From Burkholderia sp. USMB20 (GTDB lineage: Bacteria; Pseudomonadota; Gammaproteobacteria; Burkholderiales; Burkholderiaceae): a stretch of 64,000 nt of DNA. Below the pieces are notes generated by a model. The model saw nothing but the letters and a program-made list of their open reading frames with translations. It was not told where the DNA came from and did not search any database. Below are positions 3,061-11,795 of this stretch, piece by piece; position 1 is the stretch's first letter; each line of letters opens with the position of its first letter. The stretch spans positions 310,001-374,000 of the forward strand of contig NZ_JTAN02000003.1 in assembly GCF_000949135.2 (NCBI RefSeq), in the 5' to 3' direction. The translations under genes were made by a program, and so were the position numbers.

Positions 3061-5478
<2,418 letters not shown>

Positions 5479-5616: not shown

Positions 5617-5695
5617 GGGCCCCTAGCTCATGCTTGGTTAGAGCAGCGAACTCATAATTCGTTGGTGCCGGGTTCGACTCCCGGGGGGCCCACCA
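5617..5695 (+). tRNA. tRNA with CAT anticodon, probably tRNA-Ile2 (lysidine type)
   Basis: A full cloverleaf is readable: acceptor GGGCCCC (5617-5623) with GGGGCCC (5685-5691), D stem GCTC/GAGC, anticodon stem GCGAA/TTCGT around loop CTCATAA (anticodon CAT at 5653-5655), T stem CCGGG/CCCGG around TTCGACT, discriminator A and encoded CCA. The C4-G69 and C5-G68 acceptor pairs and the G27-T43 wobble in the anticodon stem are features of tRNA-Ile2, whose C34 is changed to lysidine by TilS to read AUA. Elongator tRNA-Met also has CAT, so automatic annotation may call it Met. Confidence 0.85.
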
Positions 5696-5736
5696 GATTC
5701 GCTTCCAGGGTTATCCGGGGAAGTCTGTGCCGTTGA

Positions 5737-5766
5737 GCATAAGTTGTCCACCTGGACACGTTATGC
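5737..5766 (+). repeat. 30-bp imperfect palindrome just 3' of the tRNA
   Basis: GCATAAGTTGTCCA (5737-5750) faces TGGACACGTTATGC (5753-5766) across a CC centre. Twelve of 14 positions are complementary. It begins 41 bp after the tRNA CCA end. It could be a recombinase core site left by an excised element or an operator; the sequence does not decide. Confidence 0.5.
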
Positions 5767-6160
5767 CTTATTTCCCGATTATGACGCCTCGGATGCCGGT
5801 CATGGTCTCACGGGGCATCCGGGTTGAACGACTGCGCCGGCGACTGATCGACCGGCACGCAGCAGTTGCTCGAAGATGGCCGTCTGCGCGCGTCGACTTT
5901 CGGAGGGCGGTGGCCCGGCCGTCGTCTGCGCTCAAAAAGGCGCACGCCTATCCATAACAGAGTCGCGATATACACGAGCGACGAGAGTCCCAGTTCTGTC
6001 GACGGTGCATCCCTGCGCAGCTTCCTCAAGACAGTGCAGAACCTCGACTGCATGACTACCGCAGGCATCGCGGTCTACTACTCGATTTCCTGAGGGGATG
6101 GGAAGGTTGAGCTGTGGCGTTCGTCAATGCAGTCAACGGACATATCGATCTGTCCCATAT
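5767..6160. other. Gene-free interval between tRNA and the hydrolase gene
   Basis: No convincing gene is seen. A leftward open frame of 86 codons (5808-6068) encodes one possible membrane helix (LGLSSLVYIATLLWIGVRLF) followed by Arg-rich sequence. It lacks a ribosome-binding site and a recognisable family, so it may be a remnant or chance. Confidence 0.4.
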
Positions 6161-7150
6161 TCAGTGTCCGCGTAGCGTCGCGCGGATCGTGCCGCATGCC
6201 AATCGCAATGCAGCCTCGGTAGGCGGCGTGTCGGCGAGGCCGTCGAGTACCGTGAAATCGTGAATCGTGCCGAGGCAGCGAACCGCGCTTACGCGAACCC
6301 CGGCGAGCATCAGCTTGCGGGCGTAGGCTTCGCCGTCGTCACGTGCGACATCGTTTTCGGCTGTGACGATCAGCGCGGGAGGCAGGTCTTCGAGGTCCGT
6401 GTAACTCGCGTTTAGCGGCATTGCGATTATTTCGCCGAGGTTTTCTGACGAAAAGCGCGTCCGTGCGTGCATGCGCCCGGTGTGTGGGGTCAAGCCGGGA
6501 CCGTCGGCGTATTTCGCTGCCGAGGCGCCCGCCGGGCTTGTGGAAAGCGTCGGACACAGCATGACCTGAAGCGCGATACGGGGGCCACGGCGCGCCTTGA
6601 CGAGCAGCGCGAGGGTGGCGGCGAGATGACCGCCCGTGCCTTCGCCTGCGACGATAAGGGTGCCTGCGTCGAGATTCAATGCGCGTGCGTGCTCGTGCAG
6701 ATGGACGAGCGCGGTGAATGCCTGCTCGTTTTGGGTCTGAAAGCACGCAGCGGGTGCCGAGGTGTAATCGACGAGCACGACGGCCGCCTCGGCGTCGGTG
6801 GCAATCCTGCGCGCGAGCCGGTTGTCGCTTTGGCCACCCGCGAAGCTCACGCTGCCCGGCAGGAAGAGCACGGCGGGCAGCGGAGTGGGCGCCGCCTGCG
6901 GCGGTCGTACGATCCGTATCGTGAAGCCCGGATCCGCAGCGCCAGCTTTCAGCGCGATTTCTTCGGCGTGGATCGCATCCGTAGCATCGCCGTTTGCCCA
7001 TTCGCGCAGACGCGCTGCCGGAACCCCTGCCTCAGTGGCATGGTCGAGGAACGATTGCGTTTCCGCATCGAGGACCGGATACGAGTCTGCGGATCTGATC
7101 AGGCCCGGTGCGGCGTCTCCGGGCGGACGGGCAGACGTGAAATCATCCAT
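6161..7150 (-). CDS. Alpha/beta-hydrolase-fold protein lacking the catalytic serine (HSL-like pseudoenzyme)
   Basis: This 329-residue protein has the hormone-sensitive-lipase/esterase layout: a strand ending PAVLFLPG where the oxyanion HGGG should be, VDYTSAP (usual VDYRLAP), AGEGTGG at the nucleophile elbow (usual GDSAGG), then the Asp in TAENDVARDDGEAYA and the His in GTIHDF. The elbow serine is glycine and the HGG oxyanion motif is lost, while Asp and His remain. Ordinary esterase activity is therefore unlikely; a ligand-binding or sensing role is inference. An upstream ATG at 7222 would add 24 residues. The start at 7150 was chosen because the CTTA repeats at 7240-7269 leave too little room for a promoter before 7222. 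It lies 170 bp downstream of the STAND regulator gene on the same strand. Confidence 0.75.
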   Translation of the reverse strand: MDDFTSARPPGDAAPGLIRSADSYPVLDAETQSFLDHATEAGVPAARLREWANGDATDAIHAEEIALKAGAADPGFTIRIVRPPQAAPTPLPAVLFLPGSVSFAGGQSDNRLARRIATDAEAAVVLVDYTSAPAACFQTQNEQAFTALVHLHEHARALNLDAGTLIVAGEGTGGHLAATLALLVKARRGPRIALQVMLCPTLSTSPAGASAAKYADGPGLTPHTGRMHARTRFSSENLGEIIAMPLNASYTDLEDLPPALIVTAENDVARDDGEAYARKLMLAGVRVSAVRCLGTIHDFTVLDGLADTPPTEAALRLACGTIRATLRGH

Positions 7151-7239
7151 GGGGCAGTTTCCGATGAGTAAGGCTTGCTTGTCGATCCGGCACCGTTGGC
7201 CGTCGACAGAACAAATTTTCATCGGATTCCCGCACGAGC

Positions 7240-7269
7240 CACAGTTAAGCGTTGCTAAGAGGCGTTAAG
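7240..7269 (-). promoter_or_regulatory. Three tandem 10-bp CTTA repeats upstream of the hydrolase-fold gene
   Basis: Read on the minus strand the units are CTTAACGCCT, CTTAGCAACG and CTTAACTGTG, with no gaps. The inner 16 bases CTTAGCAACGCTTAAC (7244-7259) recur exactly at 10052-10067. Tandem direct repeats of about one helical turn are the usual target of OmpR-type winged helices such as the one in the neighbouring regulator. Confidence 0.65.
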
Positions 7270-7320
7270 CCCGTGTCCAGCAAAGCGTTCACGCACGCTT
7301 CGAGCCGATTTACCGTCGCT

Positions 7321-9894
7321 TCAGGTCTGCACACCGCGCATTGCCGCAGCCTCCTGCAAATGCACCTGTAACCACGACGGCGTGTTCCCCCGTCCAGCTT
7401 CGATCAATGCGTTTGCGCTCCCTGCGTCGCCAGCGCGCGCGAACACTTCGAGTTGCATCGGGGTTGCGCCGTCCGGCGTGACAGGTCTCCCTTCGTGAAT
7501 GGCCTCGAAGCCCTCGCCCCATTTGTCCCAATACGCGAGACCGCGCCGGCGCGTGCGCTCGCGAAGCCGTGCGGTCCATTCGCGCGCGAGCGCCACTTCA
7601 CCTTCCCATGTCGCGACGGCGATCGAGCCGATCGCGAGCCCATAACAGACGGTCAGATCGTGATCGATCGCCAGCGCCTCCGTCGCGCAGTCGCGCGCGA
7701 GCGCCATCGCCGCGTCGGTCTCGCCTTGCAGCCACAGAATGCGCATCAGAATGGAAATCGCAGCGATATGCGCGTCGACCTGCGCGTGATTCGCGTGCGT
7801 CGCGCGCACCGGGTCCTTATCGCGAGCCATCACCCCTTCGATCAGCGCCCGCGCGATATCGTGGTCCCCGAGGAAGTGATGTGACAACGCGCACATCCGC
7901 TCGCCGGTTTGCGTCGTCGCAAAATCGCCCGTCCGCGCGGCGGCAGCGCGAAACGCACGCGCATGTTCGAGGCTTTCCGCATACGCGCCCGCGAGCGTCC
8001 GATGCGCCCACACGCCCCACAGCGTGCGCAATGCGAGCCGGTCGTCGCCGAGGCGCTGCGCGGCGGCCTGTGCGGCGTCGAACGCGTTCGCCATGTCCGC
8101 CGTCGGCCCACGCGTGTGCCACAGCGCGTGACCGTACGCGGCGAGCAGCTCGATATACTGCTCCTTACCCGCCAGATCCGAGTTTTCCGCCGCGGCGATC
8201 GCGCGCTCGGCCATCCCGAGGAACTCGTGAGGGAGCGAAAGATGGAACCACAGCGGCGCCGTCGCGATGAGCAGGTCGATCGCGAGCTTCGGCTCGCCAT
8301 CCTGGCCGGCTGCCCAATCAAAAGCGGCTCGCACGTCGTCGATTCGCTGGCTGTGAATCGCGAGCCACTGACGCGGCGCCTTGCCTTCCCACGCCGCCAC
8401 GGGGTCGGCAAAGATCGCACAGCAGTACAACGCATGACGGCGGCGCGCTTCATCGAGTTCGTCCGCCTCTTCAAGTCGCATATATGCGTAATGGCGCGTC
8501 GTGTCGAGCAGTCGATAGGGATGGTCCGAATCGTCGATTACGCAGGCGATCAGCGACTTGGCGATCAGGCCAGTGACGGCGTCGAAGGCGGCGAGGTCAT
8601 CGACGTCGCCACTGGCCGCGACAGCCGCAGCAGCATCTATGCCGAAGGCAGCCCGCATGACTGAGAGGCGGCGCAGCACCTGGCGCTCCTCCGGCCGGAG
8701 CAATTCATAGCTCCAGTCGAGCGTCGCGCGCAGCGTCTGCTGGCGCGGAAGTGCCGTGCGGCGGCCCTGCGTGAGTAGCGCGAAGCGGTCGTCGAGCCGC
8801 GCTGCAATCGAATGCACGTCCATCAAGCCGACGCGCGCCGCCGCAAACTCGATCGCGAGCGGGATACCGTCGAGCCGTCGGCAAATATCGATCACGGGGC
8901 CCAGATTCGCCTCGCTCAACGCAAACCGGTCATTGGCGGCGCGTGCGCGGTCGTGAAACAGGGCGATCGCCGGGAACTGCACGGCGTCGTGGAGGCTCAC
9001 GCCTGCGTCAGTGTCGGGCGACGGCAACGCGGCGAGGCGATGGACGGATTCGCCTTCCGCGCGCAGCGGCTCGCGGCTCGTGACCAGCAAATGCACGCCG
9101 GACGCGCCTTGCAGCAGTTGCTCGGCGAGTACGGCAACGGCATCGATCAGATGCTCGCAGTTATCCAGCACCAGCAGCACCGGCGACGCCCCAAGCGCCT
9201 GGACAAGATCGGGCACCGGATCGCCGCTCGGGACGGCAACACCTAGCGCCGACGCGATCGTACTGGCCGCGCTCGCGGCCGCGGAGACCGGCGCGAAATT
9301 GACGAACACGGCGCGCATGCCGGTGCGCTGGGCGAAGCGATGCGCGACAGCGACGGCCACGGTCGTCTTGCCCATGCCTCCCGGGCCAGCGATGGTGAGC
9401 AAGCGTCGCTCGGGCAAGTGGTCAGTCAGACCTGCGATGACGTCCTCGCGGCCTATCACGCGAGCGAGCGTGACCGGCAGACTGCGTGAACCGCTTTCGG
9501 ACCCGGTGGAAGGCTGCACTGCGTGCGGATGAGGCCGTGGTGCGGCAGGGTCCGCTGCTTCGGCCCGGGTAACGGGCGCGGCGAAACGATAGCCGCGTCC
9601 GGTCTCGTTGACGATGTAACGCACACCGTCCGGTCCGTCGCCGAGCACCTTGCGCAGCGCCGACAGATGCACGCGCAGCGCGCCTTCCTCGACGACGTTG
9701 TCCACCCAGACGCTGTCGCACAGATTGCGCGTCGAGACCAGCGCGCCCGCATGCTCGACAAGTACGACGAGAATGTCGAGCGCGCGGCTGCCGATTTTCA
9801 GCGGCGTCCCGTCCTTGAGCAGGACTCGTTGCGGGAATTGCAGCGTAAAAGGGCCGAACGCGAGGCTGTAAGGAGCGGTCATCGAGAGCGTCAT
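7321..9894 (-). CDS. Winged-helix DNA-binding STAND ATPase regulator (predicted ATPase, COG3903-like)
   Basis: This 857-residue regulator begins with an OmpR/CadC-type winged helix (about residues 8-107: FGPFTLQFPQRVLLKDG ... NETGRGYRF). A short linker leads to an NB-ARC/AAA-like ATPase with Walker A AGPGGMGKTTVA (about 169-180), Walker B-like VLLVLDNCEHL and the downstream GIPLAIEFAAAR motif. The C-terminal half is alpha-helical with TPR-like character. Such proteins act as ATP-dependent switches that activate transcription on sensing a signal; the signal is unknown. Start: ATG at 9894, since upstream codons include only TTG. ATG at 9882 is also possible. It is divergent from a LysR gene; the spacer holds repeats matching those before the hydrolase-fold gene. 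Confidence 0.85.
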   Translation of the reverse strand: MTLSMTAPYSLAFGPFTLQFPQRVLLKDGTPLKIGSRALDILVVLVEHAGALVSTRNLCDSVWVDNVVEEGALRVHLSALRKVLGDGPDGVRYIVNETGRGYRFAAPVTRAEAADPAAPRPHPHAVQPSTGSESGSRSLPVTLARVIGREDVIAGLTDHLPERRLLTIAGPGGMGKTTVAVAVAHRFAQRTGMRAVFVNFAPVSAAASAASTIASALGVAVPSGDPVPDLVQALGASPVLLVLDNCEHLIDAVAVLAEQLLQGASGVHLLVTSREPLRAEGESVHRLAALPSPDTDAGVSLHDAVQFPAIALFHDRARAANDRFALSEANLGPVIDICRRLDGIPLAIEFAAARVGLMDVHSIAARLDDRFALLTQGRRTALPRQQTLRATLDWSYELLRPEERQVLRRLSVMRAAFGIDAAAAVAASGDVDDLAAFDAVTGLIAKSLIACVIDDSDHPYRLLDTTRHYAYMRLEEADELDEARRRHALYCCAIFADPVAAWEGKAPRQWLAIHSQRIDDVRAAFDWAAGQDGEPKLAIDLLIATAPLWFHLSLPHEFLGMAERAIAAAENSDLAGKEQYIELLAAYGHALWHTRGPTADMANAFDAAQAAAQRLGDDRLALRTLWGVWAHRTLAGAYAESLEHARAFRAAAARTGDFATTQTGERMCALSHHFLGDHDIARALIEGVMARDKDPVRATHANHAQVDAHIAAISILMRILWLQGETDAAMALARDCATEALAIDHDLTVCYGLAIGSIAVATWEGEVALAREWTARLRERTRRRGLAYWDKWGEGFEAIHEGRPVTPDGATPMQLEVFARAGDAGSANALIEAGRGNTPSWLQVHLQEAAAMRGVQT

Positions 9895-10051
9895 CGCGCG
9901 GGTTGAGTGTCGGCCAATACGGTGCGCTGGTCGCGCACACTGACGCAAAAACAGCCAATCATTGCGCAGAAGCGCAGTACGCGCCCTTAAAAGATCTTAA
10001 AAAAACCGCTTTGTTCCAGCCGACGAAGCTTGGCACGGATCCGGGCGCCGA

Positions 10052-10081
10052 CTTAGCAACGCTTAACAAGTCGTAACTGGC
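10052..10081 (+). promoter_or_regulatory. Three tandem 10-bp CTTA-type repeats between the STAND regulator and lysR
   Basis: The units are CTTAGCAACG, CTTAACAAGT and CGTAACTGGC, contiguous on the plus strand. Sixteen bases (10052-10067) are identical to the minus-strand block at 7244-7259. The block is about 60 bp before the lysR ATG and about 160 bp before the STAND regulator ATG, so it could control either or both. Confidence 0.65.
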
Positions 10082-10142
10082 CCGATGCGCGTCTCCCCGC
10101 CAACATTGCTCCATGCAAGCCAATCAATGATCGGAGGTCGAT

Positions 10143-11114
10143 ATGGAGCGTCTGAAAGCGCTGGAGGTATTCAAGGCAGTGGCGGACCACGGCAGTTTCA
10201 CGCGGGCGGCGGACGCCACGAATATTGGCGTACCGTCGGTGAGCCGCGCGGTGCAGGATCTTGAAACGATGCTCGGTGTGCAGCTCTTCAACCGGACCAC
10301 GCGCCGCGTCGCGTTGACCACGGCGGGCCATGCGGTACTCGAGCGCGTCACGGGCGTCCTGTCCTCCTATGAAGACCTCGCGCGTACCGGCAGCGACGAA
10401 GCCGGCGATTGCGCGGGTAACGTCCGCATCGAGGTGCCGGCAATCTTCGATACCGCCCGCCTCACTTCCGTCCTGGTCCGCTTCATGCGCGCCTGGCCGA
10501 AAGTACGGGTCGACGTACGGCGCGTCGACCACCTGGCCGACACGCTCGGCGATCTTGCAGACCTCGCAATCGTCGTCGGTCGCTCGGCGCCGTCGTCGTG
10601 CATCGCGCGAGCACTCGCGGACGTGCCTTTCGGGCTCTATGCGAGTCCTGCCTGGCTCGAACGGACCAACGATCTCGCTCACCCGCTCGATGTGCCTGCC
10701 GAGGCTTGCCTCGCGACGGGGGCACAGCATTCGGTGTGGACGGTCAGCCATGAAGCATCCGGGGAGTGTGTGTCGCTTGCCCCGCGCGCGGCGCTGCGCA
10801 CGAATTGTCCTCATGCGCTTCTCGCGGCGGCCGTCGACGGCGAGGGGGTAGCAATCCTGCCCAACCAGCTCGCACAAGCGGCGCTCAATCGCGGCGAACT
10901 CGTGTGCGTGCTCGATGCGTGGCAGGTGGCGCCACTGGAAGCCTGCCTCGTCTACCGGTCCAGACGCAATCTCCCCGCGCGGGTGCGCAGATTGACCGAT
11001 TATTTGCTCGACGCCTTCGGCGAGCAGCGCGACGAGGTTGGCGCAATGGTGGCTGTACCGAACATTACTCAGATTGCAGCGACGCAGGCGACGCTAACGC
11101 CGTGCGCAGCTTGA
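10143..11114 (+). CDS. LysR-family transcriptional regulator
   Basis: This 323-residue protein has the LysR layout: an N-terminal winged helix-turn-helix (MERLKALEVFKAVADHGSFT to about residue 60, with SVSRAVQDLETMLGVQLFNR as recognition region) and a periplasmic-binding-like effector domain from about residue 90. The LFNRTTRRVALTTAG signature is typical. The effector is unknown. A strong GGAGGTCGAT ribosome-binding site precedes the ATG. The C-terminus after about residue 300 is longer than in most LysR proteins. Divergent orientation from the STAND ATPase gene suggests shared regulation, not the classic LysR/enzyme pair. Confidence 0.9.
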   Translation: MERLKALEVFKAVADHGSFTRAADATNIGVPSVSRAVQDLETMLGVQLFNRTTRRVALTTAGHAVLERVTGVLSSYEDLARTGSDEAGDCAGNVRIEVPAIFDTARLTSVLVRFMRAWPKVRVDVRRVDHLADTLGDLADLAIVVGRSAPSSCIARALADVPFGLYASPAWLERTNDLAHPLDVPAEACLATGAQHSVWTVSHEASGECVSLAPRAALRTNCPHALLAAAVDGEGVAILPNQLAQAALNRGELVCVLDAWQVAPLEACLVYRSRRNLPARVRRLTDYLLDAFGEQRDEVGAMVAVPNITQIAATQATLTPCAA

Positions 11115-11795
11115 TGAATATCTTGCTTATACGAATGCAGGGGAAACAACGAAATGATGGTTGATTTTGCTGGATGTCTGCTGGACGTGTCGTCGCGGTA
11201 TCTCGGACTCGCGACCAAGAACCGGACGGTGGTGGCTGACGTCGACGCCGGATCAGGACACGCAACGCGTGTGAGCGATTCACGTTGGCACGGGTTGCAG
11301 TGGTTTCCCAACTCGGTGGCGAATGTCTCTACGGCAGACGCTACAGTTGAGAGCAGTGTGCTAGACGCTCCTCCAATGATGTCGGCGCGGTAAGTAGTGC
11401 GTCAGTCGAATTGGGAAGATATGCGGCAGCCAAGACCGAGAGTACAAAACCGGATGGGATCCCCGACAATAGGCGATTGCGCAGATATCGGTGATGAAGA
11501 GATCGCGTCATTCTTCACAACTGCTACGACCTAGGCATAAAGTCGTCGGCGCCCCATAGTCGAAGTCATGTTGAGTGGTGTAATAGGGCTCAGTAGCAGT
11601 TTGTAAGGTCGTAAATGACTGGTCGGCGTACGAAAAACGCAGCTCGTCGGACGTGACTTGTCGGCGGGCGCCGTTCCATACCTCAGCGAGCTCGAGGTTA
11701 TGGCGTCTGGTTGGTTCTTCGCGGAGCACCAGCCTCCCGGCGGTATGCCATGGAAATCGTGAGGTCGATGTCGAATACCCGGTGCCGGTATGCTC
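11115..11795. other. Gene-poor start of a decayed interval
   Basis: No gene can be supported. Small open frames exist (79 codons rightward at 11154-11393; 73 codons leftward at 11508-11729 with AEVWNGARRQVTSDELRFSY), but they match no family I recognise and lack clear ribosome-binding sites. The composition is visibly less GC-rich than in flanking genes. Confidence 0.4.

Follow-up and report, generated by a model that had tools for sequence, protein, structure and literature searches.

The window analysed here, a stretch of 64,000 nucleotides from Burkholderia sp. USMB20 (contig NZ_JTAN02000003.1, positions 310,001 to 374,000), contains a module of three genes built around a STAND regulator, in which two arrays of 10-bp direct repeats (arrays A and B, each a copy of what is called the box below) lie in front of a gene for a hydrolase-like protein and of a lysR gene, respectively. 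The features are listed below by window position.

6075..11283, no strand assigned: whole module, comprising pseudo-hydrolase, box A, STAND, box B and lysR and sharing 94% identity with relatives' loci
6161..7150, minus strand: Abhydrolase_3 (HSL-type) pseudo-hydrolase of 329 amino acids, nucleophile Ser replaced by Gly, hydrophobic N-terminus absent
7215..7220, minus strand: -10-like hexamer GAAAAT, 29 nucleotides past the start of the last unit of array A
7269-7240, minus strand: array A, three 10-bp direct repeats CTTAACGCCT CTTAGCAACG CTTAACTGTG, predicted pseudo-hydrolase promoter box
7321..9894, minus strand: STAND regulator, with OmpR-type winged helix (about residues 9-112), linker, NTPase and helical-repeat part
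9986..10005, plus strand: further conserved element CTTAAAAGAT CTTAAAAAAA between STAND and lysR, its columns conserved across 5 loci that include two close relatives
10052..10081, plus strand: array B, three 10-bp direct repeats CTTAGCAACG CTTAACAAGT CGTAACTGGC, predicted lysR promoter box
10102..10107, plus strand: -10-like hexamer AACATT, 30 nucleotides past the start of the last unit of array B
10143..11114, plus strand: gene for a LysR-type regulator of 323 amino acids, divergent from the STAND gene

Pfam matches upheld the gene assignments that an earlier note had made from the letters of this DNA (a winged-helix STAND protein, a hydrolase-fold protein and a LysR regulator), as the STAND protein matched Trans_reg_C (1.8e-13), the hydrolase Abhydrolase_3 (2.9e-43) and the product of the third gene LysR. 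The N-terminus of the STAND protein is an OmpR-type winged helix whose closest entry in the PDB is KdpE, with CadC, PhoB and OmpR entries also found. Its ATPase matched nSTAND_NTPase5 (2.2e-06) and NACHT (3e-04), both below the gathering thresholds, and AAA_22 (5.5e-06) just above its own, and it retains the invariant STAND residues G170, G175-K176-T177, D244, T272-S273-E275 and G343. The structural model contains the NTPase and a long helical part, with a mean predicted local distance difference test (pLDDT) score of 82. The chain thus combines, as STAND activators do, a P-loop NTPase of the NB-ARC/NACHT kind and a helical-repeat C-terminus with a DNA-binding domain (Trans_reg_C, residues 28-103), while the winged helix together with direct repeats about one turn apart corresponds to binders of the OmpR/PhoB type, the contact with DNA being predicted. 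No BTAD domain was matched by Pfam after the winged helix at E<=0.001, and PADLOC returned one weak match, mad8 (7e-07), to part of the ATPase.

The 16-mer CTTAGCAACGCTTAAC from which the earlier note had started occurs exactly twice in the window, at 7244-7259 (minus strand) and 10052-10067 (plus strand), with no further match at up to three mismatches, and two matches were also reached by 1 of 100 shuffles. However, inverted 16-mer pairs are abundant in this GC-rich window (24, overlaps counted apart, against a mean of 9.9 and a maximum of 15 in 30 Markov simulations), so a lone inverted 16-base match is weak evidence, and the 16-mer taken alone was rejected as such. The three contiguous 10-bp units claimed for both sites are also present, at 7269-7240 (minus strand) and 10052-10081 (plus strand), and none of 20 simulations produced a perfect three-unit array (18/18 unit letters), of which the window has two. 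The two-unit pattern matched twice in the window at a spacing of 10 bp and not at all at 9 or 11 bp. The perfect triple unit, unlike the lone 16-mer, is strong evidence that the arrays are real.

The module was also read in relatives whose STAND proteins share 94-95% identity with that of the window (G021, G073 and a B. cenocepacia record), 70-71% (G019, G237 and P. fungorum, which is G423), 63% (G397), 52% (G268 and G351) and 47% (the Rhizobiales isolate L003). Each of the nine Burkholderiaceae relatives read had the hydrolase-side box, in most cases as CTTAGCAAAG CTTAACTGAC or a near variant, little beyond TAAC being retained in the first unit outside the close relatives. Seven non-redundant Burkholderiaceae loci were aligned (the window, L161, L002, L163, L164, L165 and L166), the near-identical loci L159, L160 and L174 being excluded from this alignment and from the profile described below, and L162 and L160 being duplicate rows of L002 (P. 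fungorum) and L001/L081, respectively. The last unit of array A reads TTAAC in 7/7 of these loci and the first unit keeps TAAC in 7/7, with a mean column identity of 0.91 in the box against 0.51 in the flanks. On the lysR side the corresponding values were 0.89 against 0.53-0.61 (5 loci, two of them close), and the same conserved block appeared when the STAND-lysR gap of 5 loci was aligned without anchoring on the box. Box columns therefore exceed their flanks, which was the test of unit conservation amid drifting sequence that the earlier note had proposed. The lysR-side box is retained in G019, P. fungorum and G237 in addition to the close relatives, and a box at 10-bp spacing is found in 8/11 rows around the window (6/9 tree rows, with the near copies L163 and L165 added). 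As separate observations, the STAND gene of L161 (G019) contains an in-frame TGA, both boxes being retained, and the Paraburkholderia locus L069 has three variant boxes, e.g., TTTAGCAACG TTTTACTC, at 3132 (plus strand), 2841 (minus strand) and 907 (minus strand), one of which precedes an OsmC-like gene.

Outside this module, the fetched loci were scanned with a profile derived from 11 Burkholderiaceae arrays. In many Pseudomonas loci, whose STAND proteins are only 36-41% identical to that of the window, this located a two-unit box, ATTAACAACG TTTAACTCGT, in the gap separating the STAND gene from a divergent neighbour. Scores of at least 12 were reached by 70/235 regions upstream of STAND genes (a redundant set), whereas random stretches drawn from these loci (1768, probably including some true second boxes) did so in 4.75% of cases. 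Once near copies had been removed (leaving 36/48 loci, STAND 34-42% identical), the mean column identity was 0.97 in the box and 0.43-0.45 in the flanks, the former value being partly a selection effect, as sites were picked by box score. In a tree of 99/225 proteins, all rows of the Pseudomonas STAND clade (13/13) had a box at exactly 10 bp within 7 kb, and across this clade and the rows of the window clade the 9-bp version of the pattern gave one match in all and the 11-bp version none. Overall, the box is a set of direct repeats with the core TTARC, three in the Burkholderiaceae and two in Pseudomonas and others, spaced by exactly 10 bp.

Genome-wide scans were run on the relatives' genomes. 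A search by DNA alone with TTARCAANNNTTAACTS in 119 Pseudomonas genomes gave 78 matches in 52 genomes, compared with 10 for the reversed pattern, and 73/78 read TTAACAACG[TA]TTAACTC, despite three positions left free in the pattern. A STAND match (E<=1e-115) was present in 55/119 of these genomes, and 49 of the 52 genomes with a box had both (Fisher p 6e-23). Most of the boxes (65/78) are situated upstream of a STAND gene at a distance of 42-3944 bp, 24 of them pointing away from it at less than 400 bp and 41 pointing towards it at 560 bp or more. In 14 whole genomes reached through the loci, 23 pattern matches were found, one to three per genome, and none with the control. The random scatter of arrays that the earlier note had named as a refutation was thus not seen, by count, in Pseudomonas and in these 14 genomes. 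In the Burkholderiaceae the distribution is non-random by place only: the number of matches to the looser TTARCRNNNNKTAACTS in nine genomes is uninformative, given 15 matches against 14 for the reversed control, and their place is informative, as 10/15 lie in the module. Exactly two matches each, all inside the module, were found in G021, G073 and G237 (7.6-8.0 Mb), and 2/3 in P. fungorum, 1/1 in G019 and 1/2 in G397 were inside it, the single match in G001 being unrelated. A box was also found before an OprD-type porin gene at L181 1501 and L195 1500 (G434 and G433), distant from the box on the STAND side, so the regulon is not always local.

The position of the box relative to a -10-like element was likewise constant, with an xAxxxT hexamer starting 28-31 nucleotides past the start of the last unit in 56/62 non-redundant sites (62/123 after removal of near copies), compared with 13% on average and 29% at most for other windows of four offsets. 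If the hexamer is taken as -12 to -7, the last two units would be centred near -41.5, the class II position, and transcription in the window is predicted to start near 7208 (minus strand) and 10114 (plus strand). The hydrolase protein should accordingly begin at 7150 rather than at the ATG at 7222, as the latter precedes the inferred start. No promoter was detected between 7100 and 10200 by a sigma-70 consensus scan, which is expected where a good -35 is missing and proves nothing. The weakness of the 16-mer taken by itself in a GC-rich window could favour the view that the repeats have no function and resemble each other by chance or descent; however, their conservation against drifting flanks, the 10-bp register and the fixed distance to the -10 contradict it, and it is almost certainly wrong. 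The evidence from place, register and -10 distance is independent of both the Burkholderiaceae count and the 0.97 value.

The genes behind the box differ among lineages. In the Burkholderiaceae they encode LysR and Abhydrolase_3 proteins, and in Pseudomonas a small AraC followed by STAND, a flavodoxin/FMN reductase (followed in L009 by an Abhydrolase_1 gene), an Abhydrolase_1 esterase or an OprD porin. Elsewhere, the box precedes genes for an Abhydrolase_3 protein that has its serine (L053), an Oxidored_FMN protein (L167), or an AraC and then the serine-less hydrolase (L003), while weaker boxes precede SDR (L176), MFS (L068) and AraC (L175) genes. As these genes vary by lineage and STAND is constant, the box belongs with STAND and not with LysR. 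It is therefore most likely the landing site of the STAND protein itself, bound by its OmpR-type winged helix, and from these sequence comparisons we put the probability that both arrays serve as the operator of this protein, whose gene lies between them and which would activate the genes behind them, at about 80%.

LysR proteins often bind before their own and neighbouring genes, and in the window lysR adjoins one array and is co-inherited with most copies of the module. Since TTAA is self-complementary, its recurrence every 10 bp also fits the T-N11-A motif, and the array units do so. Ownership of the box by LysR was nevertheless rejected and is very unlikely, because the box stays with STAND rather than with lysR: it is kept in L164 and L003, where no lysR match lies in the stretch read, and in Pseudomonas it precedes AraC, flavodoxin, OprD and esterase genes instead of lysR. 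Among the LysR homologues, all four (41-43% identical) from genomes lacking a STAND match at 1e-120 (G062, G064, G084 and G088) are without the box, whereas all seven from genomes with this STAND have it, weakly in two. The flanks of TTAA are also asymmetric (C before, C after), as in direct repeats. A third explanation, in which a small AraC protein or a general factor reads the box and the STAND protein merely shares its regulon, would agree with the small AraC genes that follow the box in L003 and a number of Pseudomonas loci and that adjoin STAND in L175. It is very unlikely, as in the Burkholderiaceae module lysR and the hydrolase gene, not araC, stand behind the boxes, which are as few as one to three in each of the 14 whole genomes and track STAND in the 119 Pseudomonas genomes.

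Several observations weigh against the STAND protein as the binder of the box. Within the Burkholderiaceae, the first unit of array A is degenerate across the aligned loci apart from TAAC, and the lysR-side boxes of G268 and G351 are degenerate (ATTAATACCA/ATTAATAGCA TTTAACTCGA), with lysR several kb from STAND. By pattern, the box is absent from 3/11 rows around the window (L068_4132, L062 and L175), and matches to TTARCRNNNNKTAACTS barely exceed the control; both of those in G268 lie outside the module, and G351 has none. In Pseudomonas, 13/78 boxes lack a STAND match nearby (3 being in genomes without STAND at the cut-off, the others distant or on other contigs), and 16/63 STAND matches have no box. 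The box label on the tree changes 8 times, against 16.1 when shuffled (600-bp search window), and related sites are not independent events. Furthermore, Pseudomonas loci contain a second STAND gene, tail to tail with the box-linked one and with no box upstream; the recognition helices of the pair (e.g., in L009, near 10240, minus strand) are nearly identical, mostly LRVHIAALRRAL vs LRVHMAALRKAL, so either paralogue could bind the box.

If the STAND protein does bind the box, its N-terminal winged helices would sit side by side, one per unit, and the ATPase and helical-repeat part would keep them inactive until a signal and ATP permit oligomerisation. The oligomer would then adjoin the -35 region and recruit RNA polymerase to promoters lacking a good -35, in the window turning on lysR and the pseudo-hydrolase gene. 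In this scheme, ATP-driven opening and side-by-side binding are carried over from MalT and AfsR by analogy. The earlier note had proposed a STAND regulator that controls itself, a LysR partner and a hydrolase-fold protein through a shared box. A common box does indeed stand before both the hydrolase gene and lysR, and the STAND winged helix is its most likely binder, but self-control does not follow from array B, which points away from the STAND gene, lies about 160 bp from its start and has a -10-like element that belongs to lysR. The order box, araC, STAND in Pseudomonas suggests autoregulation there, and the degenerate CTTAAAAGATCTTAAA element at 9986-10005, nearer to the STAND gene than array B and again a 10-bp repeat, is possibly a candidate site for control of the STAND gene, either as a weaker repeat or as a LysR (T-N11-A) site.

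Among known systems, PhoB, OmpR and KdpE, whose winged helix is related in sequence, bind tandem direct repeats of about one helical turn at the class II position; unlike in these proteins, no receiver domain was found here, its place as the sensing part being taken by a STAND ATPase with helical repeats. Promoter activation through several sites by a STAND ATPase is known from activators such as MalT. MalT resembles the window protein as a STAND ATPase activator, but its DNA-binding domain is a C-terminal LuxR-type helix-turn-helix, whereas that of the window protein is an N-terminal OmpR-type winged helix. In a study of AfsR, MalT is named as a STAND protein, and AfsR is described as an OmpR-type winged helix with a NOD/STAND ATPase and a TPR part, in which NOD and TPR inhibit and ATP enhances activation (PMC10936776). 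According to the same study, an AfsR dimer binds direct repeats side by side at a promoter with a poor -35, the afs box consists of 11-bp repeats centred at -29.5, and SARP sites end 8 bp from the -10 (PMC10936776). AfsR and the large Streptomyces SARPs thus resemble the window system in their winged helix with a STAND ATPase, direct repeats and poor -35. They differ in that AfsR has a BTA domain, for which the window protein gave no Pfam match, in that the repeats here are of 10 bp and lie near -41.5 instead of 11 bp at -29.5, and in that the hexamer follows the 10-bp last unit by about 18-21 nucleotides, compared with 8 bp between the 3' repeat of SARPs and the -10.

The boxes and genes appear to have moved together as an imported module. 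In other Burkholderia, counterparts of the 5.2-kb block (6075/6144-11283) with 94% identity reside on the third replicon, which is where G021 and G073 carry the module; in the window the block adjoins a tRNA-Met gene (5617-5695) behind rpoD. Both rpoD and the tRNA gene are kept in G001, G012, G036, G021 and G073 to about 5700-5750, after which the sequences diverge.

Winged-helix STAND proteins gave matches in 60/61 relatives searched, many covering the winged helix only, and strong STAND matches were found in 45/398 family genomes at 1e-120. Regulators of the MalT/AfsR kind are already known; the present box system is unreported as far as the literature was searched, which yielded no paper with the box strings, no described binding site for winged-helix STAND regulators lacking BTAD and, among the matches listed, nothing on this STAND family outside the Streptomyces SARPs. 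Such BTAD-less regulators are common, and a box that can be read from DNA yields their target genes, orientation and promoter type. The box promoters also offer an easy bench system for gene switching by NLR-like ATPases, and the conserved serine-less hydrolase beside the switch hints at what may sense.

The hydrolase has the sequence and fold of the HSL family (Abhydrolase_3), with an alpha/beta model of pLDDT 75 and esterases and hydrolases as the solved relatives found, but it lacks the GxSxG serine. It had been called dead in the earlier note, and the catalytic serine is indeed missing, with GEGTGG where active relatives have GDSVGG. Gly replaces the nucleophile in 11/11 copies that accompany the STAND clade of the window (the window, G021, G073, B. 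cenocepacia, G019, P. fungorum, G237, G397, G268, G351 and L003), Asp and His being kept where read. Ser is kept in 17/17 homologues whose fetched stretch (about 4 kb) gave no STAND match, as well as in 3/3 homologues from Pseudomonas-type STAND loci; the search gave 43 matches, of which 22 weaker ones outside the module are not in these counts. A hydrophobic N-terminus is absent from 9/9 serine-less proteins (maximum 14-residue hydropathy at most 1.06) and present in 16/16 with Ser (at least 1.77), the maximum of L214 lying before its likely start; this check covered 9/11 serine-less proteins and 16/20 with Ser, leaving out L174, G073, L116, L118, L217 and L219. As both the serine and the hydrophobic N-terminus are lost, an exported esterase seemingly became a cytoplasmic pseudoenzyme. 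By these sequence features, the hydrolase seems to be a conserved pseudoenzyme tied to the regulator, and it is probably an intracellular binding partner or ligand sensor rather than an esterase. The plant receptor GID1 is a pseudoenzyme of the HSL fold with an incomplete catalytic triad, and the window protein is alike in being of HSL type without the full triad (Ser replaced by Gly, Asp and His kept), a receptor role being hypothetical. It is conceivable, though rather doubtful, that within this 5-kb mobile module the former exported esterase now acts, like GID1, as the ligand receptor (or as a decoy or anti-activator) of the NLR-like STAND activator that drives its gene by way of the shared box. 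In L112/L119 (G073), the pseudo-hydrolase matches fall in two reading frames near residue 190, and this copy looks broken.

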